DNA of 50,666 bases, taken from Vicinamibacterales bacterium (lineage in GTDB: Bacteria; Acidobacteriota; Vicinamibacteria; Vicinamibacterales; SCN-69-37). Below, one piece after another: positions 13,704 through 31,554 of this stretch; position 1 is the stretch's first letter; each line of letters begins with the position of its first letter. The notes beneath the pieces were generated by a model that did not search any database, was not told the DNA's origin, and was given only the letters and a program-made list of their open reading frames with translations. Both the position numbers and the translations under genes were made by a program. The stretch is from positions 1 through 50,666 of the forward strand of contig JAURFE010000008.1 of assembly GCA_030827135.1 (NCBI GenBank). The letters are read 5' to 3'.

Positions 13704-14275
13704 TGGTGGCCGCGTTGTTGCTGATGGTGGTGGCGATCTGGAATGCGCCGCCGGCCACGCTTGGGGAAGCCGCGATCCGGGAGGCGGTGCGCCGGCAGAC
13801 GATGGCGCCGTCCACGGTGACCATGACCAATGACTCGCTGGGCCCCATGCCCCCGACGACCGCGATTCCTCTGCCTGACCCGCCGGTCGCCGGCGCCCCC
13901 CCGGCGGGGCCTCCGGTGCCGGCGCCTCCGAAGACTGACGTGAAGGCGGAGGTCGTCAAGGACGCCGCCTGGTGGCGCGCCCGCATCACGGCCGCACGCG
14001 AGGCCCTTGCGCGTGATCGCCTTCTGCTCGACGCGTTGCAGAGTCGCGTATCCGCCCTGGCCAGCGACATCGCCGGGCGCGATGACCCGGCGCAGCGCGC
14101 GCAACTGATGACCGCGCGCCAGCAGGCGCTCGATGAACTCGAGCGCCTCCGGAAGCAGATCGACACGGACGTCCTGGCGATCGCCGCGATCGAGGACGAG
14201 GCGCGCAAGGCAGGCGTACCGGCCGGCTGGATCAGAGATGAGGAGATGGGGAGATGGGGAGATTGGGAGTCGTAG
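13703..14275 (+). CDS. Single-pass membrane protein with proline-rich linker and coiled coil
   Basis: This is a 190-residue protein of unrecognised family. A short N-terminal hydrophobic helix (about residues 2-14) is followed by a Pro/Ala-rich linker (about 48-78). A long charged alpha-helix (about 85-170) has heptad-like leucines and may form a coiled coil. ATG 13703 follows GGGAGG by 7 bases and overlaps the PilX-like stop as TGATG. The last 14 codons and the stop are not ordinary coding sequence: they are made of an 8-base tandem repeat (14235-14266) and the first bases of an intergenic palindrome that contributes the TAG. The last gene of the pilus operon; a role in minor-pilin function is inferred from position. 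Confidence 0.7.
   Translation: MVAALLLMVVAIWNAPPATLGEAAIREAVRRQTMAPSTVTMTNDSLGPMPPTTAIPLPDPPVAGAPPAGPPVPAPPKTDVKAEVVKDAAWWRARITAAREALARDRLLLDALQSRVSALASDIAGRDDPAQRAQLMTARQQALDELERLRKQIDTDVLAIAAIEDEARKAGVPAGWIRDEEMGRWGDWES
14235..14266. repeat. Tandem octamer repeat inside a gene end
   Basis: Four consecutive 8-base units (GAGATGAG, GAGATGGG, GAGATGGG, GAGATTGG) run through the last codons of the preceding gene and join the palindrome at 14272. They encode the Glu/Trp/Gly-rich C-terminal residues of that protein. Confidence 0.8.
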
Positions 14276-14326
14276 GGCGCGCTGGGTTTGAGCGCGCCAA
14301 CACGGCGCACTCCAACCCAGTGCGCC
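14272..14326. repeat. Pair of GTAGGGC-type palindromes
   Basis: The first hairpin (14272-14298) has stem GGCGCGCT/AGCGCGCC, and its leading TAG is the stop codon of the upstream gene. The second (14304-14326) has stem GGCGCACT/AGTGCGCC. They separate the convergent pilus operon and aroB and could terminate or stabilise both transcripts. There is no T-run. Confidence 0.75.
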
Positions 14327-14350
14327 TTGCTGCGGACGGCGGACCGCGGA

Positions 14351-15427
14351 CTAGCGGAGTCCGATCGACGTGAGCGCTGCGGTCAGTTCCTTGCGGGTGA
14401 CGTCGGTGGCGATGCGGGTGCCGCCGATGTGGGTGGGCAGCACGAAGTGCAACGTGCCGGCCGCGACTTTCTTGTCGAGGAGGATGGCGTCGAGGGCTTC
14501 AGATACCTTCAGGTCGTTGGTGGCCGGCAGGGGGCCCATATTCGCGATGACGGTGCGGAGGGCCTCGAGATCGTCCTGAGGGAACTCGCCTCTGGCCTGT
14601 GACAGCGTCGCCGCCGCGAGCATGCCAAGCCCCACGGCCTCGCCGTGACGGAAGCGGCGGTATTTGCTGATGGCCTCGAGGGCGTGTCCCACCGTGTGTC
14701 CAAAGTTCAGGATGCGCCGCCGGCCCTGTTCGTGTTCGTCCGCCATGACGACGTCGGCCTTGATGCGGCAACAGTCCCCGATGAGCGGCGTCAGCACGGA
14801 CACGTCGCGCGCAAAGATCGCGGTCAGGGAACCCGCCAGCTGATCAAAGAGCGGGCGGGACGCGATGACGCCGTATTTGATGGCTTCATACAGTCCGGCG
14901 CGGAATTCCCGACGGGGCAGCGTGGCGAGGACTGCCGGTTCGCAGACCACCAGGGACGGCGCGTGAAACGCGCCGACCAGGTTTTTGCCGGCCGCCAGAT
15001 TGACGCCGGTTTTGCCGCCGATGGCACTGTCCACCTGCGCCAGCAGTGTCGTGGGGACCTGCACGACGCGCAGGCCGCGCAGGTAGGTGGCCGCGGCAAA
15101 TCCCGCCACGTCGCCGACCACGCCGCCTCCGATCGCCACGACCACCGTGGATCGCTCGGCCTTGCGGCTTACGAAGCCCTCGTAGAGTTTCGCCACCGTG
15201 GGAAGGGCTTTGGCGCGCTCCCCATCGGGAATCAGCAGCGGCGGGTATCCGCCCAGCACCGGCCCGAGCGCCGGCCCGTGGGCTCGCCAGACTGGTGGGC
15301 AGGAAATGACGATCGTGTCGGACACGAGGCGGTGTTCCGCCAGCAGCGCGTCGAGCCGGGCCAGGAGGCCCGACCCCACCAGCACCGGGTAGCGGCCGGT
15401 CGCGTGTGTCACATCGATGTGGGTCAT
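14351..15427 (-). CDS. aroB: 3-dehydroquinate synthase AroB
   Basis: AroB is a cytoplasmic NAD- and zinc-dependent enzyme that converts DAHP to 3-dehydroquinate, the second step of the shikimate pathway. Family motifs are visible: the NAD-binding GGGVVGDVAGFAAATYLRG, the PTTLLAQVDSAIGGKTGVN segment, and the zinc/substrate region KADVVMADEHEQGRR followed by LNFGHTVGHALE. At 358 residues the length is normal. The start at 15427 begins MTHIDVTHATGRYPV; the in-frame extension to 15529 would translate the octamer repeat into low-complexity residues and is rejected. The start codon is only three bases from a 57-bp-arm inverted repeat, so no ordinary ribosome-binding site is present. Confidence 0.93.
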   Translation of the reverse strand: MTHIDVTHATGRYPVLVGSGLLARLDALLAEHRLVSDTIVISCPPVWRAHGPALGPVLGGYPPLLIPDGERAKALPTVAKLYEGFVSRKAERSTVVVAIGGGVVGDVAGFAAATYLRGLRVVQVPTTLLAQVDSAIGGKTGVNLAAGKNLVGAFHAPSLVVCEPAVLATLPRREFRAGLYEAIKYGVIASRPLFDQLAGSLTAIFARDVSVLTPLIGDCCRIKADVVMADEHEQGRRRILNFGHTVGHALEAISKYRRFRHGEAVGLGMLAAATLSQARGEFPQDDLEALRTVIANMGPLPATNDLKVSEALDAILLDKKVAAGTLHFVLPTHIGGTRIATDVTRKELTAALTSIGLR

Positions 15428-15430
15428 TTG

Positions 15431-15563
15431 CAATGAGGCAATGGGGCAATGAGGCAATGGGGCAATGGAATGAGGCAATGGGGCAATTCCACAATGGGAT
15501 TGGAGCATTGCCCCATTGCCCCATTCCATTGCCCCATTGCCTCATTGCCCCATTGCCTCATTG
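15431..15563. repeat. 57-bp-arm inverted repeat made of 8-base units
   Basis: The arms 15431-15487 and 15507-15563 are reverse complements with one visible mismatch and are separated by 19 bases. Each arm is a run of CAATGAGG and CAATGGGG units, with one irregular CAATGGAATG step at the same place in both arms. The element fills almost all of the divergent aroB/proS promoter region. Confidence 0.92.
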
Positions 15564-15608
15564 TGTGTCTCTCCCCCGGGTTAGGATAACAGGCTGGAGA
15601 GTATCGCT

Positions 15609-17060
15609 TTGTCCGACAAGAAAGACGCCTTCGTTACTGAAATCACGCCGCGCTCGGAAGACTTCTCGCGCTGGTACCTGGATGTGGTGCGCCGCGCAGA
15701 ACTGGCCGACTACTCGCCGGTCAAGGGCTGCATGGTGATCCGTCCGTACGGCTACGCCATCTGGGAGCACATTCAGCGCATGCTCGACGCGCGCTTCAAG
15801 GCCACCGGCCACGTCAACGCGTACTTCCCGCTCTTCATTCCCGAAGGGCTGCTCATGAAGGAGAAGGACCACGTGGATGGCTTTGCCCCCCAGGTGGCCT
15901 GGGTGACGCGTGGCGGCGACGAGGAACTGGAAGAGCGCCTGATTGTGCGTCCGACTTCCGAGGTCATCATCGGGACGATGTACGCCAAGTGGGTCAAGTC
16001 GTGGCGCGACCTGCCGATCCTGATCAACCAGTGGGCGAATGTCGTGCGGTGGGAGAAGGTCACGCGGCCGTTCCTGCGCACGACCGAATTCCTCTGGCAG
16101 GAAGGGCACACGGCCCACGAAACCGCCGAGGAAGCCGAAATCGAGACCCTGAAGATTCTGGCGCTCTACAAGGAGTTCGCCGAGAACGAACTCGCGATGC
16201 CGGTCGTGGACGGGGTCAAGAGCGAAAGCGAGAAGTTCGCCGGCGCGTCGCGCACGTATTCGATCGAGGCGTTGATGGGCGATGGCCGGGCGCTGCAGGC
16301 GGGCACGTCACACAACCTCGGACAGAACTTCGCGAAGGCGTTTGAGATTCAGTTCCAGGGGCGCGACAAGACGATGCAGCACGCGTGGACGACCTCCTGG
16401 GGCGTGTCCACCCGGCTCATCGGCGGCGTGATCATGACGCACGGTGACGACAGCGGCTTGGTGCTGCCGCCGGCGGTCGCGCCGCATCAGGTCGTGATTA
16501 TTCCGATTCCCCGCGGCAACTGGAAAGAGACGGTGTTGCCGACCTGTCAGGCGATTCGCGACGAGCTGACGGCCGCCGGCGTACGCGTGAAGCTCGACGA
16601 CTCCGAGGAAAACTCGCCCGGCTGGAAATACGCCGAGTGGGAGTTGCGCGGTGTGCCGCTCCGTCTTGAAATTGGTCCCAAAGACATCGAGAAGGGCACC
16701 GTGTTCTCGGCGCGTCGCGACACGCGCGAAAAGGCGGCGCTCCCGATGGCCGACCTGACCACGACGGTCAAGACGCTGCTGCAGGCCATTCAGGACAACC
16801 TGCTGGCGCGCGCGCGTGCGTATCGCGAGGAACACACGACCGAGGTGTCGACCTGGGCCGAGTTCACCGCGGCGATGGAAGGCCGGCCCGGGTTCCTGAT
16901 TGCGAGCTGGTGCGGCAGCGCGGCCTGTGAGGCCACCATCAAGGCCGAGACGCAGGCGACGCTCCGGAACATTCCGATGAATTCGCCACGCGTGGACGGC
17001 ACGTGCATCAAGTGCCATGGTGCATCGACTGTGAAGGCGTGGTTCGCGAAGGCGTATTGA
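15609..17060 (+). CDS. proS: Prolyl-tRNA synthetase, short archaeal/eukaryotic type
   Basis: This class II aminoacyl-tRNA synthetase charges tRNA-Pro in the cytoplasm. At 483 residues it lacks the editing domain of the long bacterial form. Visible landmarks are KGCMVIRPYGYAIWE near the N-terminus, motif 2 with FLRTTEFLWQEGHTAHET, and motif 3 with GVSTRLIGGVIMTHGDDSG. A C-terminal zinc-type domain carries Cys residues (WCGSAACEA and TCIKCHG). The start is TTG 15609, placed by TGGAGAG at 15595-15601 and a TAGGATAAC box just upstream. No in-frame ATG precedes the conserved N-terminus. It overlaps the next gene by four bases. Confidence 0.95.
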   Translation: MSDKKDAFVTEITPRSEDFSRWYLDVVRRAELADYSPVKGCMVIRPYGYAIWEHIQRMLDARFKATGHVNAYFPLFIPEGLLMKEKDHVDGFAPQVAWVTRGGDEELEERLIVRPTSEVIIGTMYAKWVKSWRDLPILINQWANVVRWEKVTRPFLRTTEFLWQEGHTAHETAEEAEIETLKILALYKEFAENELAMPVVDGVKSESEKFAGASRTYSIEALMGDGRALQAGTSHNLGQNFAKAFEIQFQGRDKTMQHAWTTSWGVSTRLIGGVIMTHGDDSGLVLPPAVAPHQVVIIPIPRGNWKETVLPTCQAIRDELTAAGVRVKLDDSEENSPGWKYAEWELRGVPLRLEIGPKDIEKGTVFSARRDTREKAALPMADLTTTVKTLLQAIQDNLLARARAYREEHTTEVSTWAEFTAAMEGRPGFLIASWCGSAACEATIKAETQATLRNIPMNSPRVDGTCIKCHGASTVKAWFAKAY

Positions 17061-18682
17061 GCACGGAGGCCCGCACCTGGCGTGTGCTCAACATCGAGAT
17101 GCGTCTCGATGAACCGGAGAGTCAGCTGCGGGATCGGGCGGCGCGCGCGGCGGGGGTCGATCCAGGGCGAGTGCGGGGCTGCCGGATCGCGCGACGATCC
17201 GTCGATGCCCGGCGGCACGGCCAAGAGCGCCGTCTCCGGTTCATCGTCCACGCGGATCTGGTGATTGATGACGGGTATCGGGGTGAACGCTTTGAGGCGG
17301 CCCTGCGCGCGGGCAAGGTTGTGGAGGCACCGCGTGCGGAACGTTTCGAGGTGGCCGGTGCGCGCGCGGCGGGGAAGCGGGCGGTGGTGGTGGGATCCGG
17401 ACCTGCCGGGCTGTATGCGGCGCTGGTGTTGGGCCTCAACGGCGTGGCCGTGGATCTGATTGACCGCGGCGCCGAGCTGAAGACACGGGGGAAGGACGTG
17501 GTGCGGTTTCACCGCACGCGCGTGCCGAACCCCGAGTCCAACCTGCTGTTCGGCGAAGGTGGCGCCGGCACGTACTCCGACGGCAAACTGTATACACGCG
17601 TGGACGATCCGCTGGAGGTGCCGTGCCTCGAGATGCTCGTGGCGTGCGGCGCGCCGCCGGACATCCTCTACGATTCGCGCGCGCACATCGGCACCGACAA
17701 GCTGCACAAGATCCTGCCGGTGCTGCGCGCCCGCATGGAGGCGCTGGGCGTCCGGTTCCACTGGCACACGCGGCTGGATGGACTCGTATGTGATGACGGC
17801 CCCCCCCGCCGTGTGCGCGCGGTGCACACATCGGCCGGCGAGATCTCCTGTGACGCGGTGTTCCTCGCGGTCGGACACAGCGCGAGGGACAGCATCAAGC
17901 TGCTCCATGCCCAGGGCGTGCGGGTCGAGGCGAAGCCGTTTCAGCTGGGTGTGCGTATCGAGCATCCGCAGGAGTTGATCACCCGTGGTCGCTACGGCAC
18001 GGGGCCGGAGGCCGCGCGCCTGGGGCCGGCATCCTACAACCTCATCTGCAAGGCCGAGGGAGGGGTGCCCGCGAGCTTTTCGTTCTGCATGTGTCCCGGC
18101 GGCACCATCGTTTCGAGCACCAACATCGCCGGGTTGCTGTGTACGAACGGCATGAGCAACTCGACGCACTCATCGCGGTGGGCGAACGCCGCACTGGTCA
18201 CCACGTTCGGTCCCGCGGAGTATGGCCCGGGGCCCTTCGCCGGCGTCGAGTTCCAGGAAACACTGGAGTGGAGGTTCTTCGAGGCGGGTGGCGGCGACTA
18301 TACCGCGCCTGCGCAGACGGCCGATGACTTTGTCGCCGGCCGCATGTCTGCAGCCACGCGCCACTCGAGTTATACATTCGGCACGACGCCGGGGCGCATC
18401 GATCAGCTCCTGCCGCCACTCGCGCGCAAGGCGATCGCGCGCGCGCTGCTGAAGTACGACCAGCAGATTCCGGGCTTCAAATCCGCCGAAGGGCTTCTGG
18501 TGGGGTTGGAGTCGCGCAGTTCAGGGCCGATCCGGCTGCCTCGCGATCGCGAAACCGCACTGGCCGACGGATTCGCGAACCTCTTCCCGATGGGGGAAGG
18601 CGCGGGCAGCGCCGGCGGCATCATGAGCGCCGCCATCGACGGCGCCCGCTGCGCCCTGCACTACGTGCGGGACCTCGCGTAG
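17057..18682 (+). CDS. FAD-dependent dehydrogenase (COG2509-like)
   Basis: This 541-residue flavoprotein has an N-terminal domain of about 100 residues, then a dinucleotide-binding motif VVVGSGPAGLYAALVLG (about 112). The segment FGEGGAGTYSDGKLYTR is characteristic of the COG2509 group, and a C-terminal FAD contact region reads FPMGEGAGSAGGI. It probably reduces an unidentified substrate in the cytoplasm; no signal peptide is seen. TTG 17057 overlaps the proS stop as TTGA, so the two are co-translated. A GTG a few codons later would shorten the N-terminal domain. HI0933/geranylgeranyl-reductase-like enzymes are alternative relatives, but the GGAGTYSDGKL segment favours COG2509. Confidence 0.88.
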   Translation: MSTEARTWRVLNIEMRLDEPESQLRDRAARAAGVDPGRVRGCRIARRSVDARRHGQERRLRFIVHADLVIDDGYRGERFEAALRAGKVVEAPRAERFEVAGARAAGKRAVVVGSGPAGLYAALVLGLNGVAVDLIDRGAELKTRGKDVVRFHRTRVPNPESNLLFGEGGAGTYSDGKLYTRVDDPLEVPCLEMLVACGAPPDILYDSRAHIGTDKLHKILPVLRARMEALGVRFHWHTRLDGLVCDDGPPRRVRAVHTSAGEISCDAVFLAVGHSARDSIKLLHAQGVRVEAKPFQLGVRIEHPQELITRGRYGTGPEAARLGPASYNLICKAEGGVPASFSFCMCPGGTIVSSTNIAGLLCTNGMSNSTHSSRWANAALVTTFGPAEYGPGPFAGVEFQETLEWRFFEAGGGDYTAPAQTADDFVAGRMSAATRHSSYTFGTTPGRIDQLLPPLARKAIARALLKYDQQIPGFKSAEGLLVGLESRSSGPIRLPRDRETALADGFANLFPMGEGAGSAGGIMSAAIDGARCALHYVRDLA

Positions 18683-18707
18683 GCAACCTCGCGCAGAGCC
18701 CGCTGGT

Positions 18708-18842
18708 TACGTAGGGCCCGCTGAACTGTAGCGGGCCATGCACGGCTGGGTACGTAGGGCCCGCTGAACTGTAGCGGGCCATGCGCGGCGCGCTCAAATT
18801 CAGCGCGCCCTACGAAGCCGCGCCCTGCGAAGCCGCGCCCTG
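18708..18842. repeat. Cluster of GTAGGGC palindromes, one as a 34-bp direct repeat
   Basis: Two identical 34-base copies (18708-18741 and 18751-18784) each form a hairpin with stem GGCCCGCT/AGCGGGCC. A third, inverted copy (18787-18814) has the alternative stem GGCGCGCT-type. A 15-base unit is then repeated twice (18813-18827, 18828-18842). Together they fill the gap between the convergent FAD-dehydrogenase and HEAT-protein genes. Confidence 0.85.
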
Positions 18843-18846
18843 CACA

Positions 18847-19866
18847 CTACCGTTTCGCGGTCGCGACCAGCAGGCCGGCCGACGGCCACTTTTCCAGAAT
18901 CTTTTTGAGCGTGGGGTGCCGGCGTGTGATCCCCTCGCGCGTGACGATCGACTTGAACGCGTCGGCCAGATGGTCGCGCCACCAACGGTCGTCGGTTGGT
19001 GTGTCCACCCAGGCCTTTGCGAGCGGCATAAGGCAGCCAAGGTCACCGATGACCGCCGCGGCGGACAAAAATCCCACGGGCAGGGGACCGGTTGCCTGTT
19101 CCAGTGTCTCGCGCAGGTCGTAGAGCGCCAGACGGCTGTTGCGCGCCGCGAGTTGCTGGTGCACTGCACCACGGACGCCGGTCCAACGGGCGCGTTCGTC
19201 GGGCGAGGACGCCGCCTGTTCCCGCCCCCGGATCGCTTCGACGGCCTTCTTCAACGTGATCAGCGTCGCGCGCTCCCCGTCGTCGCGCACCACCGCGCCG
19301 GCGATGTCGGGGTCGCCGGGCAGCCCCTGCGCGACCAAGGCGTCCAGAGACTCCACGGCTCCGGCCTGACGACGGGTGACGCGGGCCACGACTCTGGAGG
19401 CCGGGTCCTTCGCCAGTGCCTCGTAGAGCGGCTTCAGCAGACGTTCCGGCTGGCCTTCGAGCGCGGTCAGGGCGGCGAGACGCCGGGTGGTGGGGGTGTC
19501 GGCGTCCACGACGAGTGCGGCGAGGCGTTCAAATGCCCGCGTGGCGCGCGTGTCCTTGCCGGCCGCGACCCGTCCCAGCAGGTCGATCGCGGCGACCGCC
19601 AGCGCGTCCGGCCCGGTCTCGTCAGACAGCGTATGGGCCAGGGTCGTCGCCCGTGGGTCGCCGATCGAATCCAGTGCTTCGAGGGCCACGACCCTGACGG
19701 TGGTCTCACGGGTGTGGTCAGCGGCAACGGCGAGCAGGGCCGTCGTCGCTCTGGACCCGATGACGGCGAGTCGCGCTCCGGCCAGATCGCGTCGGAGGGC
19801 ATCGCCGGAGAGCAGTTCCTCGATCAGGCGCGCGATATCGGCGGCGGCAGACTTCGTGATGGCCAT
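18847..19866 (-). CDS. HEAT-repeat-like protein
   Basis: This 339-residue, Ala/Leu-rich protein lacks a signal peptide and reads as a chain of helical pairs. Segments such as RVVALEALDSIGDPRATTLAH and AVAAIDLLGRVAAGKDTRAT look like HEAT or PBS-lyase-type repeats in the first 180 residues. The second half is also helical but less regular. It is probably a cytoplasmic scaffold; no catalytic motif is seen. The ATG at 19866 is preceded by a terminator-like hairpin rather than an obvious promoter, so it may depend on read-through from the OmpA gene 60 bases upstream. Confidence 0.75.
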   Translation of the reverse strand: MAITKSAAADIARLIEELLSGDALRRDLAGARLAVIGSRATTALLAVAADHTRETTVRVVALEALDSIGDPRATTLAHTLSDETGPDALAVAAIDLLGRVAAGKDTRATRAFERLAALVVDADTPTTRRLAALTALEGQPERLLKPLYEALAKDPASRVVARVTRRQAGAVESLDALVAQGLPGDPDIAGAVVRDDGERATLITLKKAVEAIRGREQAASSPDERARWTGVRGAVHQQLAARNSRLALYDLRETLEQATGPLPVGFLSAAAVIGDLGCLMPLAKAWVDTPTDDRWWRDHLADAFKSIVTREGITRRHPTLKKILEKWPSAGLLVATAKR

Positions 19867-19868
19867 AA

Positions 19869-19903
19869 GAAAAGGGCCGGGACGCGTGTGCGCCCCGGCC
19901 CTC
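19869..19903 (-). terminator. Rho-independent terminator after the OmpA gene
   Basis: On the minus strand a GGGCCGGG-rich stem pairs with CCCGGCCC across a short loop and is followed by TTTTCTT. It lies just after the OmpA stop codon and just before the HEAT-protein ATG, so it may attenuate transcription between them. Confidence 0.8.
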
Positions 19904-19926
19904 AGAGTGTCGGCTCGGCCGCGAAC

Positions 19927-21639
19927 TTACTGCAGACGCACCGTGAGCGCGGCGCGGCGGTTCATGCGGCGCGTCTCTTCACGGGAGTTGTCGAACTTCG
20001 GGCGCTCTTCGCCGTAGCTGACCACCGTCAGCCGGTCCGGATTGATGCCGCGTGAGTTCAGGTATTCGCGGACGGCCGTTGCGCGACGTTCGCCCAGCGC
20101 CAGGTTGTATTCCGCCGTGCCGATGTTGCACGTGTGGCCTTCAATCTGGAGGCGCAGGGTCGAGTTGGCCTGCATCGCCGTCACGGCTTCGTCGAGCACG
20201 CGCAGCGCGTCGGCGCGCAGCGTGTAGCGGTCGAAGTCGAAGTGCACGTCTTCGAACACGAACTCCTTGACCGTCGGCTGCACCACCTGGATGTTCACCG
20301 AGGCCGTCGCGCTGGCGCCGCGGCTGTCGGTGACTGTCACGGTGACGGGCACGGTGCCCGGCGTGTTCGGCGCCGTCCAGGGCGTCTGGCGGTTGGCCGC
20401 GCTCGTGAAGGAGCCGGTGTTGGCCGACCAGCGGTAGGTGAGCGGGTCGCCATCCGGGTCCTGCGCGTCGGCGGTCACGGTTGAGACGCGGCCGATTTCC
20501 ACCGTGCACGGGTCACACGCCGCACGTACGGTGGGCGGACGGTTCGCCGGCGCGGGTGGCGGTGGGGGCGGGGGAGGCGGTGGGGGCGGTGGGGGCGGCG
20601 GCGCAACGAACTTGCGCGCGCCCGGGTGATAGCCGATCCGCACCTGGAGGCCGGCGCGGTCACCAAAGCCGCTTCCAAAGACCGGGCAGGTGCCCGTGCT
20701 GCAGAAGAATGCGTCCGCGCGTTTATCGAGGGTGCCGGACCAGTTCAGGCCGCCGCCGAGGAAAAATCCGTTCTCGGCCTGGAAGGTCAGGCCCAGTGCC
20801 GCGTAAATCGGGCTGCCGATCTTCGTTGTTCTCGGCGCAACGGACCCGTCGATGCCGCGGAAGGCGGCCGGACCGGTGATTTCGCTTTCAAGATATTTCT
20901 CGCCGTGCAGTTCCGCCGTGAGGCGAAGCGGCGACCCGGTCGGGAAGGCCATGCCGGCGCCCCACCGAATTCCATTCGACAGCGTGAAGCCGGCGGGATT
21001 GCCGCGGACGATCATGCCGCCGAAGCCCGACAGTTCCACCACGCGGAGGTTCTTGGAGACAATCGCGTCTGCCCAGAAGTCGGTCTTGCCGGTCGACGCG
21101 CCGAGAGCGTCGTCACCGGTCGCGATCTTCACGCCGCCGCGGAGCGCAAACGCTGCGGATTTCTGGTCCGCCTCGGAGAGCAGGTTGATCTTCGCGCCAA
21201 CGCGAAGGTCGCCGGGGCGGTTGCCGATCCAGCCCTGTGTCACCAGTGGATATTCGTTGACGATGCCGCCGCTGGCCCCCGCGGTGGCGGTGGAGGACGT
21301 GAAGAAGATCGGCCGCGTGTCACGGTCAATGCGGGTGATGATTTCGAAGCTGCCGAACAGTTCCACCCGGTTGCCCAGTCCCACGGCGAACGTCGCCGGG
21401 AAGTTGGTGACGTCGGTGAAGCCCTGTCCGAAGTCTGCGTTCTTCCGGAAGAGGCTCACGGACCACTTTCGATTGCCGAGAATTTCGGCGGTCGGCACAA
21501 ACCAGAAGCCTGTATCGCCGTTGACGGTTGTGGTGGCCGGCCGGGTTTCGGTCTGCGGCGGTTCCGCCGTCTGTCCGAAGGCCGGCATTGCGCTGACCAG
21601 CAGCGCGCACAGGACACTCGCCCCAAAGAGTCGTTTCAT
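19927..21639 (-). CDS. OmpA-family outer-membrane protein with PKD-like domain
   Basis: The 570-residue precursor has a signal peptide (cut after about AFGQ, residue 23). A long beta-rich barrel-like region (about 40-342) contains repeated strand pairs. A run of 16 prolines (about 347-362) leads to a PKD/Ig-like domain (about 366-460) with the DAQDPDGDPLTYRWSA signature. The C-terminal OmpA peptidoglycan-binding domain (about 465-570) has HFDFDRYTL, IEGHTCNIGTAEYNLALGE and the NRRAALTV end. It would tether the outer membrane to the wall and perhaps act as a porin. ATG 21639 is preceded by GAAGGGG; the extension to 21732 would enter the promoter. Four cysteines outside the signal may form CSTGTC and CDPC disulfides. 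Confidence 0.9.
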   Translation of the reverse strand: MKRLFGASVLCALLVSAMPAFGQTAEPPQTETRPATTTVNGDTGFWFVPTAEILGNRKWSVSLFRKNADFGQGFTDVTNFPATFAVGLGNRVELFGSFEIITRIDRDTRPIFFTSSTATAGASGGIVNEYPLVTQGWIGNRPGDLRVGAKINLLSEADQKSAAFALRGGVKIATGDDALGASTGKTDFWADAIVSKNLRVVELSGFGGMIVRGNPAGFTLSNGIRWGAGMAFPTGSPLRLTAELHGEKYLESEITGPAAFRGIDGSVAPRTTKIGSPIYAALGLTFQAENGFFLGGGLNWSGTLDKRADAFFCSTGTCPVFGSGFGDRAGLQVRIGYHPGARKFVAPPPPPPPPPPPPPPPPAPANRPPTVRAACDPCTVEIGRVSTVTADAQDPDGDPLTYRWSANTGSFTSAANRQTPWTAPNTPGTVPVTVTVTDSRGASATASVNIQVVQPTVKEFVFEDVHFDFDRYTLRADALRVLDEAVTAMQANSTLRLQIEGHTCNIGTAEYNLALGERRATAVREYLNSRGINPDRLTVVSYGEERPKFDNSREETRRMNRRAALTVRLQ

Positions 21640-21668
21640 GCGTTCCCCTTCCGTAACACTGCGGGTGG

Positions 21669-21686
21669 CCAGGGGCGATCCCCTGG
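21669..21686 (-). other. Perfect hairpin in the OmpA leader
   Basis: CCAGGGG and CCCCTGG flank a four-base loop between the predicted promoter and the OmpA ribosome-binding site. In the mRNA it would be a stable 5' hairpin, which could protect the transcript or be a binding site for a regulator. Confidence 0.6.
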
Positions 21687-21704
21687 CGCGACAACCCAAC
21701 GGCA

Positions 21705-21732
21705 ATGGTACAACGGAAACCGTCCAAGTCAA
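21705..21732 (-). promoter_or_regulatory. Sigma-70-type promoter of the OmpA gene
   Basis: On the minus strand TTGACT (21732-21727) and TACCAT (21710-21705) are separated by 16 bases, matching five and four of six consensus bases. The leader to the ATG at 21639 would be about 60 bases long and contains a perfect hairpin. Confidence 0.5.
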
Positions 21733-22118: not shown

Positions 22119-22121
22119 TCC

Positions 22122-24535: not shown

Positions 24536-24540
24536 ACTCC

Positions 24541-27500
24541 ATGCGACTTTCGAGACTGCACATCAACGGATTCAAGAGTTTTCCCGATCGCGCGGAGTTG
24601 TCGTTTGACGACGGCGTGACGGCCATTGTCGGACCGAACGGCTGCGGCAAGAGCAACGTCGTGGATGCCATCACCTGGGTGCTGGGTGAGCAGAGCGCGA
24701 AGAGCCTGCGCGGCGAGCGGATGGAAGACATCATCTTCAACGGCAGCGATGCGCGGAAGCCGACGCAGTCGGCGGAAGTGCGTCTGCGGCTGGCCAACGT
24801 GGCGCAGGTCGGCATGACGGTGCCGGTCGAGCCGGGGCTGGAGATCGTCGATCTCGATCCGGCCGCCCCTCCGGCGCACGGCGAGAACGGGCAGTTGCCG
24901 CTGGTGACGCGCGACGTGGAGATCGGCCGGCGGCTGTATCGATCGGGTGAGAGTGAATACCTGATTGACGGCGAAGTGTGCCGGTTGCGGGATGTGCATG
25001 ACCTGCTGATGGACTCCGGTCTCGGCGTGAAGGCGTACGCCGTGATCGAACAGGGCAAGATCGGCCAGATTCTGTCGTCGCGCCCTGCGGAGCGCCGGTC
25101 GCTCATCGAGGAGGCCGCGGGCGTCACGAAGTACAAGGCGCGCCGCCGGTCGGCCGAACTGAAGCTCGAAGCCGCGCAGCAGAACCTGACGCGCGTGGAC
25201 GACATCATTTTCGAAGTGGAGAAGCAGCGTGGCGCATTAAAGCGTCAGGCGGCGAAGGCGCGTCGCTACAAGCGGCTGCGCGAGGAACTGCGGCGCTGGG
25301 AGCAGGTGCAGTTTGCGAAGCGGCAGGCGGCGCTGGCCCGGGACATCGCGTCGGCCGATGCGCGGCTGGAGGAAGCGCGGGTGCGTGAGGCCGCCGCGGC
25401 GGCGCATGTGGCCGAACTCGAAACGGCGCTTGAGACGCTGCGGATTCAGCTGACGGAAGCGGAGCGCTCGGCGACCGAGACCCGCGAGCAGGCGCATCAG
25501 CGCGAACTCGGCATCGGCCGGTATCAGCAGCAGATCGCCTTCGACCGCCAGCAGATTCAGGACCTCGGGCAGCGCCTTGAGCAGTTGACGGCCGAAGCCA
25601 CCGACCTCGAGGGCCGCCTGGCGCCCGCCCGCGAGGCGATTGCCGAGCAGCGCGAGGCCATCGCAAAAGCGACCGCCACGCTCACGGAGGCGCAAGGCCG
25701 CGTGGCCGCGTGTGAAGAGGATTACCAGCGGGCGCAGACCGCCGTCCAGGGCGTGGAGCAGGACGCCGACCAGACGCGCGCGGCAGTCATGGCGTCGGCG
25801 ACGACGCTGTCGGCGCTGCGGCAGGCGCGCGACAACGCCGCTGCGGCCCGCGACCGCGTGGCGCAGGAACGCAGCCGCTTTGACGTGGAACTGCGCGACC
25901 TGCAGCAGGAGTCCGAGCGCGCCACGCGTGATCGTGACGAGGCCACGGTGGCGTTGGCGCAGGCGCGGGAGGCCGTGACCGGCGCGATCGCCGAGCGCGC
26001 GGCCGCCGAGGCGGCCCTGGTCGCGGCACGATCCGAGCGCGAGCGGCTGTCGCGCGAGCTGAGTCAGACCCACCGGGATTTGGCGGGTCTCGAGGCGCGG
26101 CTGCGATCCCTCGAGGATATCGAACGCAAGCGCGCGACGTTTGGTGATGCCGCACGCTTCCTGCTGGCGGAAGCGCCCGAGACCGTGGGGCAACACGGCG
26201 CCTTCGCGGACTACGTGCAGGTGGAGCCCTCGTTCGAGCGCGCGGTGGACGCCCTGCTCGGCGATTTGCTGCAGCACGTCGTGGTCGATCGCCCCGAACA
26301 GGTGCATCAGGCGCTCGCCAAACTCAACGAGCGCCAGGCCGGCCGGTGCGGGTTCCTCGTGCTGGATGACACCCGTGCCACGGCTCCCCGCGCGGGTATC
26401 CCCACTCCCGCGGGCGTCCGGGCACTCAGGGATGTCGCCCGGCCGACCGGGCCATACGCCGACCTGATCGCGCGTGTGTTGCCCGATGCGTGGATTGCTG
26501 ATTCCTTCGACGCCGCTCGCGCACTGTCCGCGCAGTCCGCCGTTCCGGTCGCGACCCGTGACGGCGAGGTCTTCCACGGCGCAGGTCTTGTTGAAGGCGG
26601 CGTCAGCGGCGGGGCCCACGGCATTCTTGAGACCCGTGCGGAGGCGCAGACGCTGCGCGCGCAGGTCACCGACGCCGAACAGCGGGCGCACCGGTTCGCC
26701 AACGACGTGACGTCGGTGGACTACACCATCCTGAACGGCGAATCGGACGTGACGGTCAAACGGGCCGCGCAGCACGATCAGGAAAAGGCCATTGTCGGTT
26801 TCGAAGCCCGCGTCAACCGCGCAGCGGACGAAGTGACGCGCGTGGCTCGCCGCATCGAACTCGTGTCGACGGAGCGGCGGCGCAGCGAGGAAGAAGAACT
26901 CACGGCGGAACGACGCCGTGACGAGGCGCTGCTGGCCATCGTGGCGCATGAAAGCGGACAACAGGAGGCCGAGCAGTCGCTCGGTGCCGTGTTGTCGCGC
27001 CTGCAAGGCGCACGCGGCGACGCCGAAGCGCAGATGCGTCGCGTCAGCGATGCCCGCGCCGAGCAGATGGCCGTCAGTGAACGGGTGTCGTCGCTGCAGG
27101 CCGAAGGCCGCCGCCTCGAAGAATCACTGGCCGACGTCGAGACGCGCCTGACCGCCCGGCGGTCGGAGATGACCCGCGCTGACGCCCGTCGCGAGGAACT
27201 CGGCCAGTCCATCGTGGAGACCGAGCGCAAACTCGACGACGACGTGCGCGCCTTGAACGAGTTGCGCGAAAGCCTCCGTGGCCTCGACGAGACTGTCAAC
27301 GCAGTCCGGGCCCAGTTCGGCGCGCGCGAGACCGAGATTCGCAGCGCCCGCCACGCGCTCGAAGCCGTGCGGTCGGCTGTCATGCAGTCGGAGGTCGCTC
27401 GTGCCACCGCGCAGGCCGACCTGACGCACCTGGCCGCCGCCTGTCTGGAGGCGGTCAACGCCACGATCGACGACGTGGTCGCGGAAGTCGCGCGCATGGA

Positions 27501-28293
27501 AGCCGCCGGCGAACTCGCGGCCCCCGGGCGTCGTCTCGCGGCCGCCAGCGCGGCGGAACCCGATGATGATGACGAGACGACGGCGGACACGCCGCTCGAC
27601 GCGCAGCCCGAAGGCGCGGGCGACGCCCCGGCAGACGAGACCGACGCGGAGTTGTCACCCGAAGCCGTGATCGCGAGTCTTCGCCAGAAGATTGAACGCC
27701 TCGGCCCGGTGAACATGATGGCCATTGACCAGTTCGACGAACTGGAGACGCGCCACACGTTCCTGACGACCCAGCGGAAGGACCTCCTCGATTCGATTTC
27801 GCAGACGGCCGAAGCCATCAAGCGGATCGACGTCATCACCCGCGAACGGTTTGCGGAGGCGTTTGCGCAGATCAACGCCAACTTCGAGGTGACCTTCACC
27901 ACGTTGTTCGGCGGCGGCAAAGCGGGGCTTGTCCTTATCGACCAGGAGAATCAGGTCGAAAGCGGCATCGACATCATCGCGCAGCCCCCGGGCAAACGCC
28001 TCCAGAACGTGCAGTTGCTCTCGGGTGGTGAAAAGGCCATGACGGCGATGGCGCTGATGTTCGCGATCTTCAAGTTCCGCCCCAGCCCGTTCTGTCTGCT
28101 CGACGAAATTGATGCGCCGCTTGACGACGCGAACATCGGGCGCTTCGTCGAGATGTTGCAGGGGATGCAGTCGCACACCCAGTTCATCCTCATCACCCAC
28201 AACCGCAAGACGATGGAGATCGCCGACCGTCTCTATGGCGTGACGATGGAAGAGCCGGGCGTGTCGAAGCTGATCTCCGTGCAGATGAATTGA
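24541..28293 (+). CDS. smc: Chromosome segregation ATPase SMC
   Basis: SMC is the condensin-like ATPase that organises the chromosome. The 1250-residue protein has an N-terminal head with Walker A GPNGCGKSN (about 32-40) and the Q-loop in VLGEQSAKSLRGERMEDIIFNG. Long coiled coils run to about 510 and from 660 to 1000, around a hinge near 520-650 (FADYVQVEPSFERAVDALLGD). The C-terminal head has the signature LLSGGEKAMTAMALMFAIF and Walker B FCLLDEIDAPLDD. An acidic, Asp/Glu/Thr/Ala-rich insert (about residues 1001-1040) interrupts the coil near the head. It starts six bases after the S41 stop and overlaps the next gene by four bases. Confidence 0.96.
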   Translation: MRLSRLHINGFKSFPDRAELSFDDGVTAIVGPNGCGKSNVVDAITWVLGEQSAKSLRGERMEDIIFNGSDARKPTQSAEVRLRLANVAQVGMTVPVEPGLEIVDLDPAAPPAHGENGQLPLVTRDVEIGRRLYRSGESEYLIDGEVCRLRDVHDLLMDSGLGVKAYAVIEQGKIGQILSSRPAERRSLIEEAAGVTKYKARRRSAELKLEAAQQNLTRVDDIIFEVEKQRGALKRQAAKARRYKRLREELRRWEQVQFAKRQAALARDIASADARLEEARVREAAAAAHVAELETALETLRIQLTEAERSATETREQAHQRELGIGRYQQQIAFDRQQIQDLGQRLEQLTAEATDLEGRLAPAREAIAEQREAIAKATATLTEAQGRVAACEEDYQRAQTAVQGVEQDADQTRAAVMASATTLSALRQARDNAAAARDRVAQERSRFDVELRDLQQESERATRDRDEATVALAQAREAVTGAIAERAAAEAALVAARSERERLSRELSQTHRDLAGLEARLRSLEDIERKRATFGDAARFLLAEAPETVGQHGAFADYVQVEPSFERAVDALLGDLLQHVVVDRPEQVHQALAKLNERQAGRCGFLVLDDTRATAPRAGIPTPAGVRALRDVARPTGPYADLIARVLPDAWIADSFDAARALSAQSAVPVATRDGEVFHGAGLVEGGVSGGAHGILETRAEAQTLRAQVTDAEQRAHRFANDVTSVDYTILNGESDVTVKRAAQHDQEKAIVGFEARVNRAADEVTRVARRIELVSTERRRSEEEELTAERRRDEALLAIVAHESGQQEAEQSLGAVLSRLQGARGDAEAQMRRVSDARAEQMAVSERVSSLQAEGRRLEESLADVETRLTARRSEMTRADARREELGQSIVETERKLDDDVRALNELRESLRGLDETVNAVRAQFGARETEIRSARHALEAVRSAVMQSEVARATAQADLTHLAAACLEAVNATIDDVVAEVARMEAAGELAAPGRRLAAASAAEPDDDDETTADTPLDAQPEGAGDAPADETDAELSPEAVIASLRQKIERLGPVNMMAIDQFDELETRHTFLTTQRKDLLDSISQTAEAIKRIDVITRERFAEAFAQINANFEVTFTTLFGGGKAGLVLIDQENQVESGIDIIAQPPGKRLQNVQLLSGGEKAMTAMALMFAIFKFRPSPFCLLDEIDAPLDDANIGRFVEMLQGMQSHTQFILITHNRKTMEIADRLYGVTMEEPGVSKLISVQMN

Positions 28294-29372
28294 ACGAGTC
28301 CACCGCGACCCGCTATCAACGGCTGCGCCGCACGGCGCAGATGGTCGGGCTCGCGGTCGGCGCCGCCTGGCTGGCCATCGTCGTCTTTTCGCCTGCGGGG
28401 CGGTGGGTGGCGGACTGGGCCTGGTCGGCGTCACCCGGGTGGGCGGTCCTGCTCTTTGTCACCGCCCTGGTGGTCGTCTGGGAGGCGGTCGCATTGCCGG
28501 CGAGTGTCTTCGCCGCGGTGCGTGGCGAACGCCGCTTCCGCAAAGGTGACGTGGCGGTGTCATCGCTTCTGATCGCACAATTCCGCGACACCTGCACGGG
28601 GATCGTCATCGCCATTGCCGGAGGGCTTGTGGTGTACGGAGCGATCGCGCTCGCGGGCGGGTGGTGGTGGCTGGTTGTCGGGGGGCTTGGCGCTCCGATG
28701 GTGGTCGTGGCCACTGCGGTGGCCGGCGTCACGGTGCGCGCCGCTGCCGACGGATTGCCGGTGCCGCGCGAGGCGCTCACGGACCGGTTGTCGGCACTGG
28801 TCGAGCGCGCGTCGGGCCGGCGTGTGCCCGTGCGCGAGTGGACGGATCCGGCGTCAGCCGCCCCGACGGCGCTTGTCACCGGTGTGGGCCCTTCCGGGGC
28901 GATCCTGCTCAGTCGGTCGATGGTGGCCGACTGGAGTGATGACGAGATCGCCGTGGTGGTGGCGCACGAACTGTCGCATCACGTGCATCACGATTTGTGG
29001 CGGAAAGCCGCGCTGGATGCGCTGGTGCTGGTCGCGGCGCTGGGCGCGGCGCACGTCGTGACGGTGACGGCGGGACCGGGGCTCGATGTTCAGGCTCTGG
29101 CCGATCTCACGGCGCTTCCCTTGATTGGACTCACGGCCTGGTTGGCGTGGTGGGGGCTTCGGCCGATTCGGCTGGCGCAGTCGCGAGCCCACGAACGCGC
29201 CGCGGATCGGTATGCGTTGTCAGTGACGGGGAATCCAGAGGCGTTTCGTACCGCGATCCGCCGGCTGGCCGCGCAACACCTGGCGGAAGAACGTCCGTCC
29301 ACCGTGACGCGCCTCTTCTTCCATCGTCATCCGACGGTCGAGGAGCGCCTCACTGCTTCGCTGAAACGATAA
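28290..29372 (+). CDS. M48-family membrane zinc metalloprotease (HtpX/Ste24-like)
   Basis: This 360-residue membrane protease has about four hydrophobic segments (near residues 18-40, 48-70, 105-150 and 245-290). The zinc site is HELSHH (about 231-236, in VVVAHELSHHVHHD). The third ligand is Glu in SRAHERAADRYALS (about 293-306). It would degrade or process membrane proteins. The TTG start at 28290 overlaps the SMC stop as TTGA, and no better start is seen before the first helix. Its 3' end overlaps the convergent cupredoxin gene by 23 bases. Its coupling to smc is unusual and probably only positional. Confidence 0.88.
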   Translation: MNESTATRYQRLRRTAQMVGLAVGAAWLAIVVFSPAGRWVADWAWSASPGWAVLLFVTALVVVWEAVALPASVFAAVRGERRFRKGDVAVSSLLIAQFRDTCTGIVIAIAGGLVVYGAIALAGGWWWLVVGGLGAPMVVVATAVAGVTVRAAADGLPVPREALTDRLSALVERASGRRVPVREWTDPASAAPTALVTGVGPSGAILLSRSMVADWSDDEIAVVVAHELSHHVHHDLWRKAALDALVLVAALGAAHVVTVTAGPGLDVQALADLTALPLIGLTAWLAWWGLRPIRLAQSRAHERAADRYALSVTGNPEAFRTAIRRLAAQHLAEERPSTVTRLFFHRHPTVEERLTASLKR

Positions 29373-29751
29373 GCACCCCGGTCATGCCGCGTTCACGGCA
29401 GTTGTCGCTGGTCAGGGAGCAGTGGAATTCGAACCGTCCCGGCTTTTCGGCGCGGAAATCAAAGGTCACGTCGCGACCCGGTTCCACCCGCTTCTGAATC
29501 CGGTAGTCGGGCAGCGTGAAGCTGTGCGGAATGTCCTCAGAGGTCAGCGTGATGCGGACAAGGTCGCCCTGCGCCACCTGGATTTCCGCGCGGTCGCTGC
29601 CGGAGATTCTGAACTGATACCTGACCGCCGTCACCCCCACATCGCGCTTGGACTGCGCGACCAGGCCGACGGTCGCTATGACGCACACCAGCAGCAGGCT
29701 CCCGGCAATCAGGCAGGATCCGGGCGTAGCATGGCGACGGGTGATAGTCAC
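29350..29751 (-). CDS. Exported cupredoxin-like protein
   Basis: The 133-residue protein has an N-terminal membrane helix or signal (about residues 13-32), then a cupredoxin fold. A likely copper-ligand histidine is in SEDIPHSFTLPDY. The loop FHCSLTSDNCRERGMTG corresponds to the CuA/cupredoxin Cys-Met loop. Unlike cytochrome oxidase subunit II, the spacing between the two cysteines is seven, and the usual His between Cys and Met is absent, so copper binding is uncertain. The GTG at 29751 follows AGGAGG with a five-base spacer. The gene converges on the M48 gene with a 23-base overlap. Confidence 0.82.
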   Translation of the reverse strand: MTITRRHATPGSCLIAGSLLLVCVIATVGLVAQSKRDVGVTAVRYQFRISGSDRAEIQVAQGDLVRITLTSEDIPHSFTLPDYRIQKRVEPGRDVTFDFRAEKPGRFEFHCSLTSDNCRERGMTGVLIVSAKQ

Positions 29752-29811
29752 GGGGGCCTCCTGTCGGTTGAGACGGCTCCCCGGTATTATCGGCCTGTTC
29801 CAGACCTGCCG

Positions 29812-30177
29812 TCAGTCCCTGACCGAGTGTTTTTGTTCGACCAGCACAATACCGGACGCGACCCCGGCCGGCAGGCGTGCGGCAAGGGTGCCGGCGTTGA
29901 AGCCCTCCCGAACAGTGCCGGTGACTGTCGCACGTGCCCCGAGGCGCGGGACGCCTCTGTCCGACACGACCCACAAGGAGCCGGTCCGGTCTTCGATGCG
30001 ATACACGCCCCGGTTCATGACCGAGAAGCTGTCGACTACGGTGCCCGTGACGGTCACCTCGCGGTTGCGATATCTGGAGGGGTCGTTCAGCACCCGACTG
30101 ACGCGGGTGGCGCAGGCGGTTGCCGCGACCAGGACCAGGACCACGACGACGGTGCGAAGCACGCGGGAGGATGTCAT
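29812..30177 (-). CDS. Lipoprotein with OB-fold-like domain
   Basis: This 121-residue protein has a lipoprotein signal ending VAATAC, so it would be anchored through Cys22. The mature part is a small all-beta domain: VSRVLNDPSRYRNREVTVTGTVVDSF, then repeated short strands with IEDRTGSLWVVSD and GARATVTGTVREGF. This layout resembles tRNA_anti-like/CcmE-like OB folds found in small periplasmic lipoproteins. The function is unknown. It shares orientation with the cupredoxin gene, 60 bases downstream, and is divergent from the methyltransferase-like gene. Confidence 0.75.
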   Translation of the reverse strand: MTSSRVLRTVVVVLVLVAATACATRVSRVLNDPSRYRNREVTVTGTVVDSFSVMNRGVYRIEDRTGSLWVVSDRGVPRLGARATVTGTVREGFNAGTLAARLPAGVASGIVLVEQKHSVRD

Positions 30178-30252
30178 GGCAGCAGAATCCTGCGTTTGTG
30201 GTGTGCGCGCTGTTCAATGGTGCACAGGGCGTGGAGTACGCTGAAGACCGCG

Positions 30253-30924
30253 ATGAAACCCTGGATTTTGCTGGGCGAGAGCCGGACGCCGGACGGCACA
30301 CGGCTGACATTGATGACCCGCGACCGTGAACATGTCATCTTTGCCGACGGCAAGATCCTCATGTCGAGCCGGATGCATGGATCCGAAGAAGCGCTTGCGA
30401 CCCTCGCGTGTGCGCACATCACCACCGCCTCGTCGCCGCAGGTGCTCGTCGGTGGGCTGGGCCTCGGGTACACGCTGCGCGCGACGCTGGACGTTCTGCC
30501 GGCGGGGGCCACGGTGGTGGTCGCGGAACTCGTGCCGGGTGTCGTGGAATGGAATCGCGGGCCGCTCGGGCCGTTGGCCAACCATCCGCTCGAGGATCGC
30601 CGCGTCGAAGTGGCGGTGGGGGATGTCGGGGTGACGATGCGCAGGGAGAAGGCGGGGTTTGATGCCATCCTGCTGGATGTGGACAACGGTCCGGATGCGT
30701 TTACGTCGGCGCAGAACGCCGGGCTCTACGCCAACCAGGGGGTGACGCAGGCGCACGCGGCTCTCAAGCCCGGCGGCGTATTGGCGGTCTGGTCCGCGTG
30801 GGAAGACCGCAAGTTCGAGCAGCGCCTGCGCTGGGCCGGCTTTACGGTGACGATGCATCGCGTGCGGGCGCGGCTGAAGCAGGGTGGGCCGCGCCACACG
30901 ATCTTCGTCGGGCAGCGTACGTAG
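30253..30924 (+). CDS. Spermidine-synthase-like SAM-dependent methyltransferase-fold protein
   Basis: This 223-residue protein has the Rossmann fold of spermidine synthases and related enzymes. It shows the glycine loop VLVGGLGLGYTLRATLD (about 76-92), an acidic ribose-binding strand end (VVVAELVPGVVEWNR) and the motif DAILLDVDNGPD (about 138-150). The substrate residues of true polyamine synthases are not all recognisable, so transfer chemistry is uncertain. ATG 30253 begins a compact domain; longer in-frame reading would cross two genes on the other strand. The stop TAG is the first part of an intergenic palindrome. Confidence 0.8.
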   Translation: MKPWILLGESRTPDGTRLTLMTRDREHVIFADGKILMSSRMHGSEEALATLACAHITTASSPQVLVGGLGLGYTLRATLDVLPAGATVVVAELVPGVVEWNRGPLGPLANHPLEDRRVEVAVGDVGVTMRREKAGFDAILLDVDNGPDAFTSAQNAGLYANQGVTQAHAALKPGGVLAVWSAWEDRKFEQRLRWAGFTVTMHRVRARLKQGGPRHTIFVGQRT

Positions 30925-31019
30925 GGCGCGCTGAACTTGAGCGCGCCGAGTCTGGCCCGCTCCAAACCAGCGGGCCCTACGTACCCCCGCAAGTAGGGCC
31001 CGCTGAAGTTGAGCGGGCC
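30918..31019. repeat. Three GTAGGGC-type palindromes
   Basis: Copies at 30918-30947 (plus, GCGC stem), 30954-30983 (minus, GGGC stem) and 30993-31019 (plus, GGGC stem) lie back to back. The first supplies the stop codon of the methyltransferase-like gene. They begin the 322-base stretch without a gene (30925-31246). Confidence 0.88.
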
Positions 31020-31039
31020 ACGCGGAACCTTGAACCCGC

Positions 31040-31197
31040 GGTTCATGGTTCATCGGTTCATGGTTCATCGGTGCTGTTCTTGGTTCTGGCTGCCGGGTTC
31101 CGGGTGGAGGGTTCTGGGTTCGACGCTCGGAACCTGGAACGTGGAACCCCGAACCCCGAACAGCACCGCTGAACCCTGAACCGTGAACCGATGAACC
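31040..31197. repeat. Inverted repeat of GGTTCATx units
   Basis: The left part has GGTTCATG/GGTTCATC units and the right part the complementary GAACC units, around an irregular centre of related GGTTC/GAACC words. A 22-base stretch (31055-31076) is identical to 7250-7271. Nothing else is recognised between this element and yhbY except a TACAAT box. Confidence 0.82.
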
Positions 31198-31234
31198 ATA
31201 CGGGGTAGGGCGGTGGTTTGTAGCGCGCCGAACA

Positions 31235-31240
31235 TACAAT
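31235..31240 (+). promoter_or_regulatory. TANNNT box, candidate leaderless promoter -10
   Basis: TACAAT (five of six consensus bases) ends 6 bases before the yhbY ATG at 31247, and there is no Shine-Dalgarno sequence. A clear -35 element at the usual distance is not seen. Confidence 0.45.
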
Positions 31241-31246
31241 CGACTC

Positions 31247-31534
31247 ATGCCCGTGTCCCTGACGTCCCGCGAACGCGCCCAATTAAAAGCCCGCGCCCAT
31301 GCGCTTGAGCCCGTCGTGCAGATGGGGCAGGCCGGCGTGTCGGACGCGCTGGTCGCTGAGGTCAATCGCGCGCTGACGGCGCACGGGCTGATCAAGGTGA
31401 AACTGGCCGGCGCCGATCGCGAGGCGCGTGCATCCATGGCTGACGCCCTGTGCCGTGCGACCGACGCCGCTGAGGTGCAGCAGGTCGGCAAGGTGCTGGT
31501 GATGTGGCGGCCGAAGCCCGAAGACGCTACGTAG
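31247..31534 (+). CDS. yhbY: YhbY/CRM-domain RNA-binding protein
   Basis: This 95-residue protein is a stand-alone CRS1/YhbY (CRM) domain that binds ribosomal RNA during 50S assembly in other bacteria. The N-terminal helix (LTSRERAQLKARAHALEPVV) is followed by the family segment QMGQAGVSDALVAEVNRAL, and then GLIKVKLAG, which occupies the RNA-binding loop position. The ATG at 31247 gives the full domain. The last codon and TAG stop are formed by a palindromic repeat (31528-31554), so the native C-terminus may have been different. The length is typical. Confidence 0.9.
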   Translation: MPVSLTSRERAQLKARAHALEPVVQMGQAGVSDALVAEVNRALTAHGLIKVKLAGADREARASMADALCRATDAAEVQQVGKVLVMWRPKPEDAT

Positions 31535-31554
31535 GGCCGGCCTTCAGGCCGGCC
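31528..31554. repeat. GTAGGGCC palindrome at the yhbY stop
   Basis: A hairpin with stem GGCCGGCC/GGCCGGCC and loop TTCA directly follows TACG, and its TAG is the yhbY stop codon. It belongs to the GTAGGGC family but has a third stem sequence. Confidence 0.85.

Follow-up and report, generated by a model that had tools for sequence, protein, structure and literature searches.

This analysis concerns short palindromes in a stretch of 50,666 nucleotides of DNA from a Vicinamibacterales bacterium (contig JAURFE010000008.1 of assembly GCA_030827135.1, positions 1 to 50,666, forward strand; hereafter the window). We found that these palindromes are GTAG-tagged repetitive extragenic palindromes (REPs), a new family of a known kind of element, and that the TAG of the tag is the stop codon of three genes in the window and of further genes elsewhere in this genome and in a close relative. 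The explanation that we consider probable is that REPs inserted at gene 3' ends, or were read into there, and that the surviving copies are biased to the phase in which TAG is read. A sequence-only reading of the same DNA had proposed that the TAGs of three palindromes are the in-frame stops of a coiled-coil, a methyltransferase-like and a YhbY gene, and this was confirmed at all three sites:

14272..14298, plus strand: GTAG-REP with an 8-bp stem and 7-nt loop, fold -15.9 kcal/mol; its TAG (14273-14275) is the stop of the open reading frame (ORF) 13685-14275.
13685..14275, plus strand: coiled-coil gene (named so in the sequence-only reading), conserved to near residue 185 of 196.
30921..30947, plus strand: GTAG-REP with an 8-bp stem and 7-nt loop, fold -15.9 kcal/mol; the methyltransferase-like ORF stops at its TAG (30922-30924).
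29422..30924, plus strand: ORF that terminates at the REP TAG; its portion from about residue 275 (about 30244) onwards is the spermidine-synthase/methyltransferase-like gene.
31531..31554, plus strand: GTAG-REP with an 8-bp stem and 4-nt loop, fold -17.8 kcal/mol; its TAG (31532-31534) is the stop of YhbY.
31247..31534, plus strand: YhbY (TIGR00253, PF01985).

The palindromes had been placed at 14272, which is exact, and at 30918 and 31528, which include the preceding TAC, GTAG itself starting at 30921 and 31531. The description of the element as a GTAGGGC palindrome abutting genes was real as far as it went, but it missed that the element is a GTAG-REP. The window has 12 occurrences of the heptamer GTAGGGC where 2.4 are expected, and none of 100 shuffles reached 12.

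Wider counts were made in two samples. The own sample consists of the window and 60 further stretches, that is 61 sources (two of them, L078 and L117, entirely N) with 1,229,666 letters including 40,084 N, or about 37% of the genome. Match positions were in view when many of the first 20 stretches were picked, which biases copy density but should leave the frame counts unaffected. The second sample is made of stretches of a close relative, here called G004, whose aligned stretches are only about 80-93% identical to ours. Gene ends in both samples are the calls of a simple codon-score gene caller.

Several observations identify the family. A hairpin directly follows GTAG in 149 of 3931 cases (3.8%) in the own sample, compared with 0.75-1.6% for 19 of 20 other tetramers tried; the twentieth, TAGG, gives 8% and overlaps the GTAG motif. 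A scan with the stem of the family returned 121 matches in the same sample, while seven scrambled tags returned 1 to 35, and copies with at most one stem mismatch number 107 in the own and 89 in the G004 sample. The units are mostly 24-27 nt long and their arm sequences vary yet stay paired, as in the 20-40 bp palindromes of known REPs. The family is high-copy and mainly intergenic: only 20 of the 121 matches lie inside called genes, 18 of these being antisense and 9 weak, with two mismatches. Copies also form inverted pairs, such as 30921/30980 and 18754/18813 in the window, and they cluster around a gene for a REP-associated tyrosine transposase (RAYT).

This gene, at L100:15136-15600, is one of two Y1_Tnp genes in the genome and matches NF047646 (REP-associated tyrosine transposase) with 105.4 bits against a cut-off of 80. 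Three direct REPs precede it and several REPs follow, its own TGA stop lying within the inverted REP behind it, at the edge of the stem-loop. The gene and its flanking REPs thus are a REPtron, and it would be this RAYT that mobilises the family. A second RAYT, 77% identical to ours and likewise flanked by REPs, is present in L298 (VFZF01000019.1, 53,395 bases). The other Y1_Tnp gene of the genome (C11:1080581-1080919) is not an obvious source of the REPs, since it is flanked by a different inverted repeat. At that locus (L086:10320-11050, corresponding to G000 C11 about 1,080,320-1,081,050) the gene scores 70.7 bits with NF047646, below the cut-off, and near-identical long hairpins, AAAAAGACGTCGGGTGTCTTTTT and its complement, stand on both sides, so that judged by sequence it looks like a TIRYT-type element. 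Elements of this type have been described in Acidobacteria among others (PMC3733652).

For the frame counts we used REPs with at most one stem mismatch and only the first full REP after each gene; this dropped the two-mismatch TAG-stop copies of L080, L094 (at 707), L100 (minus strand, at 2822) and L122 and reduced the own copies whose TAG is the stop from 19 to 15. We defined d as the gene end minus the end of the REP TAG, so that d = 0 means that the REP TAG is the stop, and called a copy abutting when it lies within 20 nt of the gene end. The own first copies comprise 15 at d = 0, one at d = +10, one at d = +17 and 13 at d from -20 to -1; for G004 the numbers are 17 at d = 0, one at d = +10 and 16 from -20 to -1. 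The TAG is therefore the stop in 15/30 abutting first copies in the own sample and in 17/34 in G004, which is above the share of about one third or less at which the sequence-only reading proposed to abandon its claim. Among copies that overlap the end of the ORF, with same-strand copies deep inside genes (one own, two in G004) left aside, the shares rise to 15/17 and 17/18. Pooling the two samples after removal of four shared loci and of one d = +10 locus that appeared shared (judged by synteny and gene length, unaligned) gives 28 of 30 ORF-end copies in the TAG phase, with p ~9e-12 against an expectation of 1/3 and 3e-7 against 0.49.

The latter expectation takes the element itself into account. 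The flank preference of free copies alone predicts 28% of copies in the TAG phase and 27% and 45% in the other two. If only those phases count in which a stop lies inside the element (flank shares combined with in-element stops, which are present in phase 0 in 23/107 copies, in phase 1 in 73/107 and as TAG in 107/107), we estimate the expected share at 49%. The observed share is far above both predictions. In reversed orientation, 95/107 copies have no stop in any phase, which makes the same-orientation copies stand out; still, three reversed copies contain the stop of their gene.

We propose the following explanation for this bias. REPs are non-autonomous, IS200/IS605-like elements thought to be mobilised by a RAYT transposase, and the locations of ours include the 3' ends of genes and the DNA just behind them. 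The unpaired 5' tag of the element, GTAG, has a TAG one base from its start, with the hairpin next to it. A copy landing in the last codons of a gene, or being read into, in the phase xxG-TAG would turn this TAG into the stop, and the protein would usually change by no more than a few residues. In either of the other phases a copy would cause translation into or through the hairpin, and such copies would mostly be lost, leaving survivors that look like stop-supplying elements. We thus infer that purifying selection on phase underlies the frame bias. An alternative route, in which the native stop is lost and translation drifts on to the next stop within a REP, would suit the coiled-coil gene and, less certainly, PurA; as it predicts all phases about equally, it cannot by itself explain the bias.

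Comparison with orthologues supports the claim of the sequence-only reading that gene ends were replaced or extended by the element, the shifts ranging from -4 to about +10 residues, with some ends unchanged. We searched 40 genomes including our own, read stop positions for up to 30 loci per search, and express shifts as the own end minus the end in the relative, in residues. The methyltransferase-like gene ends 2 to 4 residues earlier (-2 to -4) than its counterparts in four same-genus relatives with the full tail, and YhbY ends at the same position as in two relatives (G003 and G027) and at -3 to +2 compared with the other six. For the coiled-coil gene, 21 of 31 match rows outside our genome end at residue 184-187 of 196. 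About 11 low-complexity residues separate this conserved part from the REP TAG, so the gene has probably been extended, reading on through these residues into the REP. The C-terminal part of its G004 counterpart could not be aligned in the synteny comparison.

Elsewhere in the genome, PurA is at +2 to G004; among other members of the genus its shift is +1 for three and 0 for two, and further out it ranges from -19 to +3. QueG and a gene of stretch L101 both are at -1 to G004, where their counterparts stop with TAA. The REP of NuoE is common to our genome and G004, and the end is at 0 or -1 compared with other members of the genus. The HIT gene is at +1 to G004 and -1 to +2 to other genus members, its native tail with its own TAG still lying behind the element. 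IspA has shift 0 in 28 of 29 relatives read and -1 in one; the stop is TGA in 21 of them, including all five same-genus relatives. As a background for these values, REP-less orthologue pairs of our genome and G004 have the same end in 287/333 cases and differ in C-terminal length in 46/333.

Six own REP-TAG loci were scored as having no REP in G004. One, L120|14877, was set aside since G004 showed half-REPs there by eye, and the five used give shifts of -1, -1, 0, +2 and 0. In the opposite direction three G004 REP-TAG loci were scored as lacking a REP in our genome: at two of these our gene has TAG at the same codon with no full REP on it, one of the two having an inverted REP 7 nt further on, and at the third the gene ends within other REP sequence.

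A number of points weigh against the insertion explanation. The IspA TAG stands exactly at the conserved stop position, mostly TGA in relatives, which looks more precise than random landing would suggest, and the IspA alignment contains no clean empty site. The HIT copy is atypical, with one mismatch and a 3' hairpin arm that aligns with native sequence. REP-less partners in G004 are available for only five own REP-TAG loci, plus HIT, so that the history of insertion is drawn from a small number of loci. Three same-strand copies lie deep in genes, 665 nt before the gene end in our genome and 214 and 299 nt before it in G004, and with these included the TAG phase accounts for 15/18 and 17/20 copies. 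The other phases make up 2/30, although 46/333 REP-less pairs vary in length; they are too rare for length tolerance alone, and thus a stronger force, or an insertion preference outside the flank model, must act. The octamer CGTAGGGC alone occurs 282 times in the whole genome compared with 255 for its backward control, and the enrichment becomes visible only once a hairpin is required. Finally, the gene ends are those of our own simple caller rather than of an annotation.

The precision at IspA might instead indicate that the transposase recognises some feature of stop codons, and the own TAG phase is indeed far denser than its neighbourhood (15 copies at d = 0 compared with 13 over the 20 nt downstream). 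We regard such targeting, which the sequence-only reading had suggested, as very unlikely. The junction is the same as in intergenic copies, the orthologue shift is variable rather than fixed, half of the abutting first copies lie away from stops, and the guide model for the RAYTs studied so far, as described in PMC8266576, uses GTAG and CT/CA sites, not stops. In the own sample, C precedes GTAG in 13/15 TAG-stop copies and 70/92 free copies, but in only 31/141 other GTAG stops, a set that still contains some half-REP stops (p 1e-6), and the dinucleotide 5' of the REP is mostly AC, TC or AT (77/92 free copies). Because their C|GTAG junction matches that of intergenic copies, most TAG-stop copies resemble ordinary insertions that have passed through a reading-frame filter.

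The same junctions bear on another possibility, namely that a REP first came to lie a few bases 3' of a native TAG and that slippage at TAG-TAG microhomology then deleted the spacer, or copied the 5' half of the REP onto the native TAG, the native stop being kept. As a general account this seems doubtful to us: most own full TAG-stop copies have the C typical of free copies, and IspA, QueG and the L101 gene have partners in G004 that stop with TGA or TAA. The latter fact also led us to reject, for the main route, the idea that GTAG derives from the target; an apparent empty site beside L102|17705 has no GTAG either.

Some loci nevertheless fit slippage well. At several loci, half-REPs (GTAG plus the 5' arm) separate the TAG stop from a full REP. 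At L115|8054 both species have the TAG stop, and only ours has a half-REP; at L104|16060 and L120|6919 the TAG is again present in both, and G004 alone has a REP or half-REP on it; and the gene upstream of the RAYT ends with a plain TAG in our genome and with an AAG-TAG-GGCCCGC half-REP in L298. Genes that end 1-20 nt before the first full REP have a TAG stop in 16/29 cases, compared with 583/2010 overall (p 0.003), some of these being half-REP stops. The context AA|GTAG is found in 6/32 TAG-stop copies and in 27/141 other GTAG stops, where it is the commonest, but in only 3/92 free copies. To judge from these sequences, a minority of copies, those with AAG-TAG, and the half-REPs on native TAGs look like products of slippage onto native stops, and such copying of a half-REP onto a native TAG may be a minor second route beside in-frame insertion. 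That REPs capture gene ends by both routes is a tentative proposal, to which we give a rather low probability. If it is true, plain TAG stops would steadily become stop-plus-hairpin modules with the protein unchanged, and this would help to maintain a high share of TAG, which accounts for 29% of called stops (295/1001 own, 288/1009 in G004), a value that seems high for a GC-rich genome. Several REPs, for example in L066 (minus strand), L072, L084, L085 and L100, also have tandem half-REPs upstream of them; in these, GTAG, 5' arm and flank are repeated once or more and break off at the loop, which looks as though replication had slipped at the hairpin.

A further possibility is that in-frame REPs are kept for a function, because a stop with an adjacent stable hairpin is useful for protection of the mRNA 3' end or for tuning of termination. 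The sequence-only reading had raised a selected combination of stop and mRNA-end hairpin, and we retain it as a rival, albeit an improbable one. Ten own full TAG-stop REPs have a partner in G004; four are full TAG-stop REPs there as well and three more have REP-like stops by eye, despite the modest identity of the aligned stretches. Sharing is about equally frequent (5/8) for REPs that lie close to a stop without forming it. REPs less than 16 nt from stop codons lower translation in E. coli, as cited in a 2025 paper (PMC12306157); there, too, the hairpin stands right behind the stop, whereas in our family the element itself supplies the stop. The REP hairpin may affect translation or mRNA stability. 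However, hairpins right after TGA or TAA are not enriched (6/706 own, 8/721 in G004), compared with 21/295 after TAG in the own sample, and perfect hairpins right after the stop follow TAG in 14, TAA in two and TGA in one case in our sample and TAG in all 15 cases in G004. As perfect stop-adjacent hairpins are nearly specific to TAG, the coupling points to the TAG of the element itself rather than to any general usefulness of such hairpins. Nor is the element an intrinsic terminator, as no run of T is seen in the base composition of the 8 positions that follow the hairpin, and the window gave 0 Rfam matches to known RNA families at gathering score.

Returning to insertion with survival in the TAG phase, the supply of stops by GTAG-REPs is already published in kind: according to Di Nocera, De Gregorio and Rocco (2013, PMC3733652) the termini of these elements "often provide" TAG stops. 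Like the superfamily described there, our family consists of 20-40 bp palindromes with an unpaired GTAG at one end, which exist in many copies and lie mostly between genes, as singles and inverted pairs. It differs in having its own arms, e.g. GGCGCGCT or GGCCCGCT, with loops GAACTTG or GGGTTTG. What is new here is the family, the quantified frame bias and the orthologue evidence; the section on stops in that paper contains no count, and our literature search, limited to open-licence PMC papers, found no published count of frame bias. The REPtron resembles those described for RAYT/TnpAREP (PMC2817692, PMC8266576) in its RAYT gene with REP flanks and an NF047646 score above the cut-off, known here from sequence, while the 5' junction is mostly AC, TC or AT instead of the CT/CA at which the studied enzymes cleave (PMC8266576). 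Counts and orthologues together indicate how so small a mobile element alters the C-termini of proteins and why its tag can make it nearly harmless at gene ends. With a bias as strong as 28/30, selection on translation into the hairpin becomes open to direct testing, and annotators may wish to consider that C-terminal residues beside GTAG hairpins may be recent.

The window contains five more full copies without a role as stop, at 18711, 18754 and 30993 on the plus strand and at 18813 and 30980 on the minus strand, and the family scan gave one weak two-mismatch match at 44027, antisense within a gene. The full copies and a related stop are:

18680..18682, plus strand: TAG stop of gene 17039-18682; the same TAG is part of an intact REP in G004.
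18711..18737 and 18754..18780, plus strand: two GTAG-REPs 3' of gene 17039-18682, not giving its stop.
18787..18813, minus strand: inverted GTAG-REP, paired with the 18754 copy.
30954..30980, minus strand: inverted GTAG-REP, paired with the 30921 copy.
30993..31019, plus strand: GTAG-REP in the same intergenic region as the 30921 copy.

The stop of gene 17039-18682, a fourth gene of interest, lies 32 nt before the REP TAG at 18711; as the same TAG sits in an intact REP in G004, it is probably a decayed REP stop. As to the first two genes introduced above, the coiled-coil gene 13685-14275 had no match in an NCBIfam or Pfam profile search, and the ORF 29422-30924 reached 20.9 bits with Pfam Spermine_synth, under the cut-off of 22.9. 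This ORF has 500 open codons, and strong matches in relatives start at residue 254-278 (one, at a contig edge, at 308). In relatives, the matches to its residues 2-128 lie apart from those to residues about 275-500, and for this reason the frame seems to join two genes. Low-complexity runs of ggttcatggttcatcggttc, a separate repeat type, lie in intergenic DNA beside REPs (at 31040-31200 and just after 7226 in the window, and in L094 and L102), and elsewhere intergenic, low-complexity runs of tccaggggtccagg stand beside REPs.

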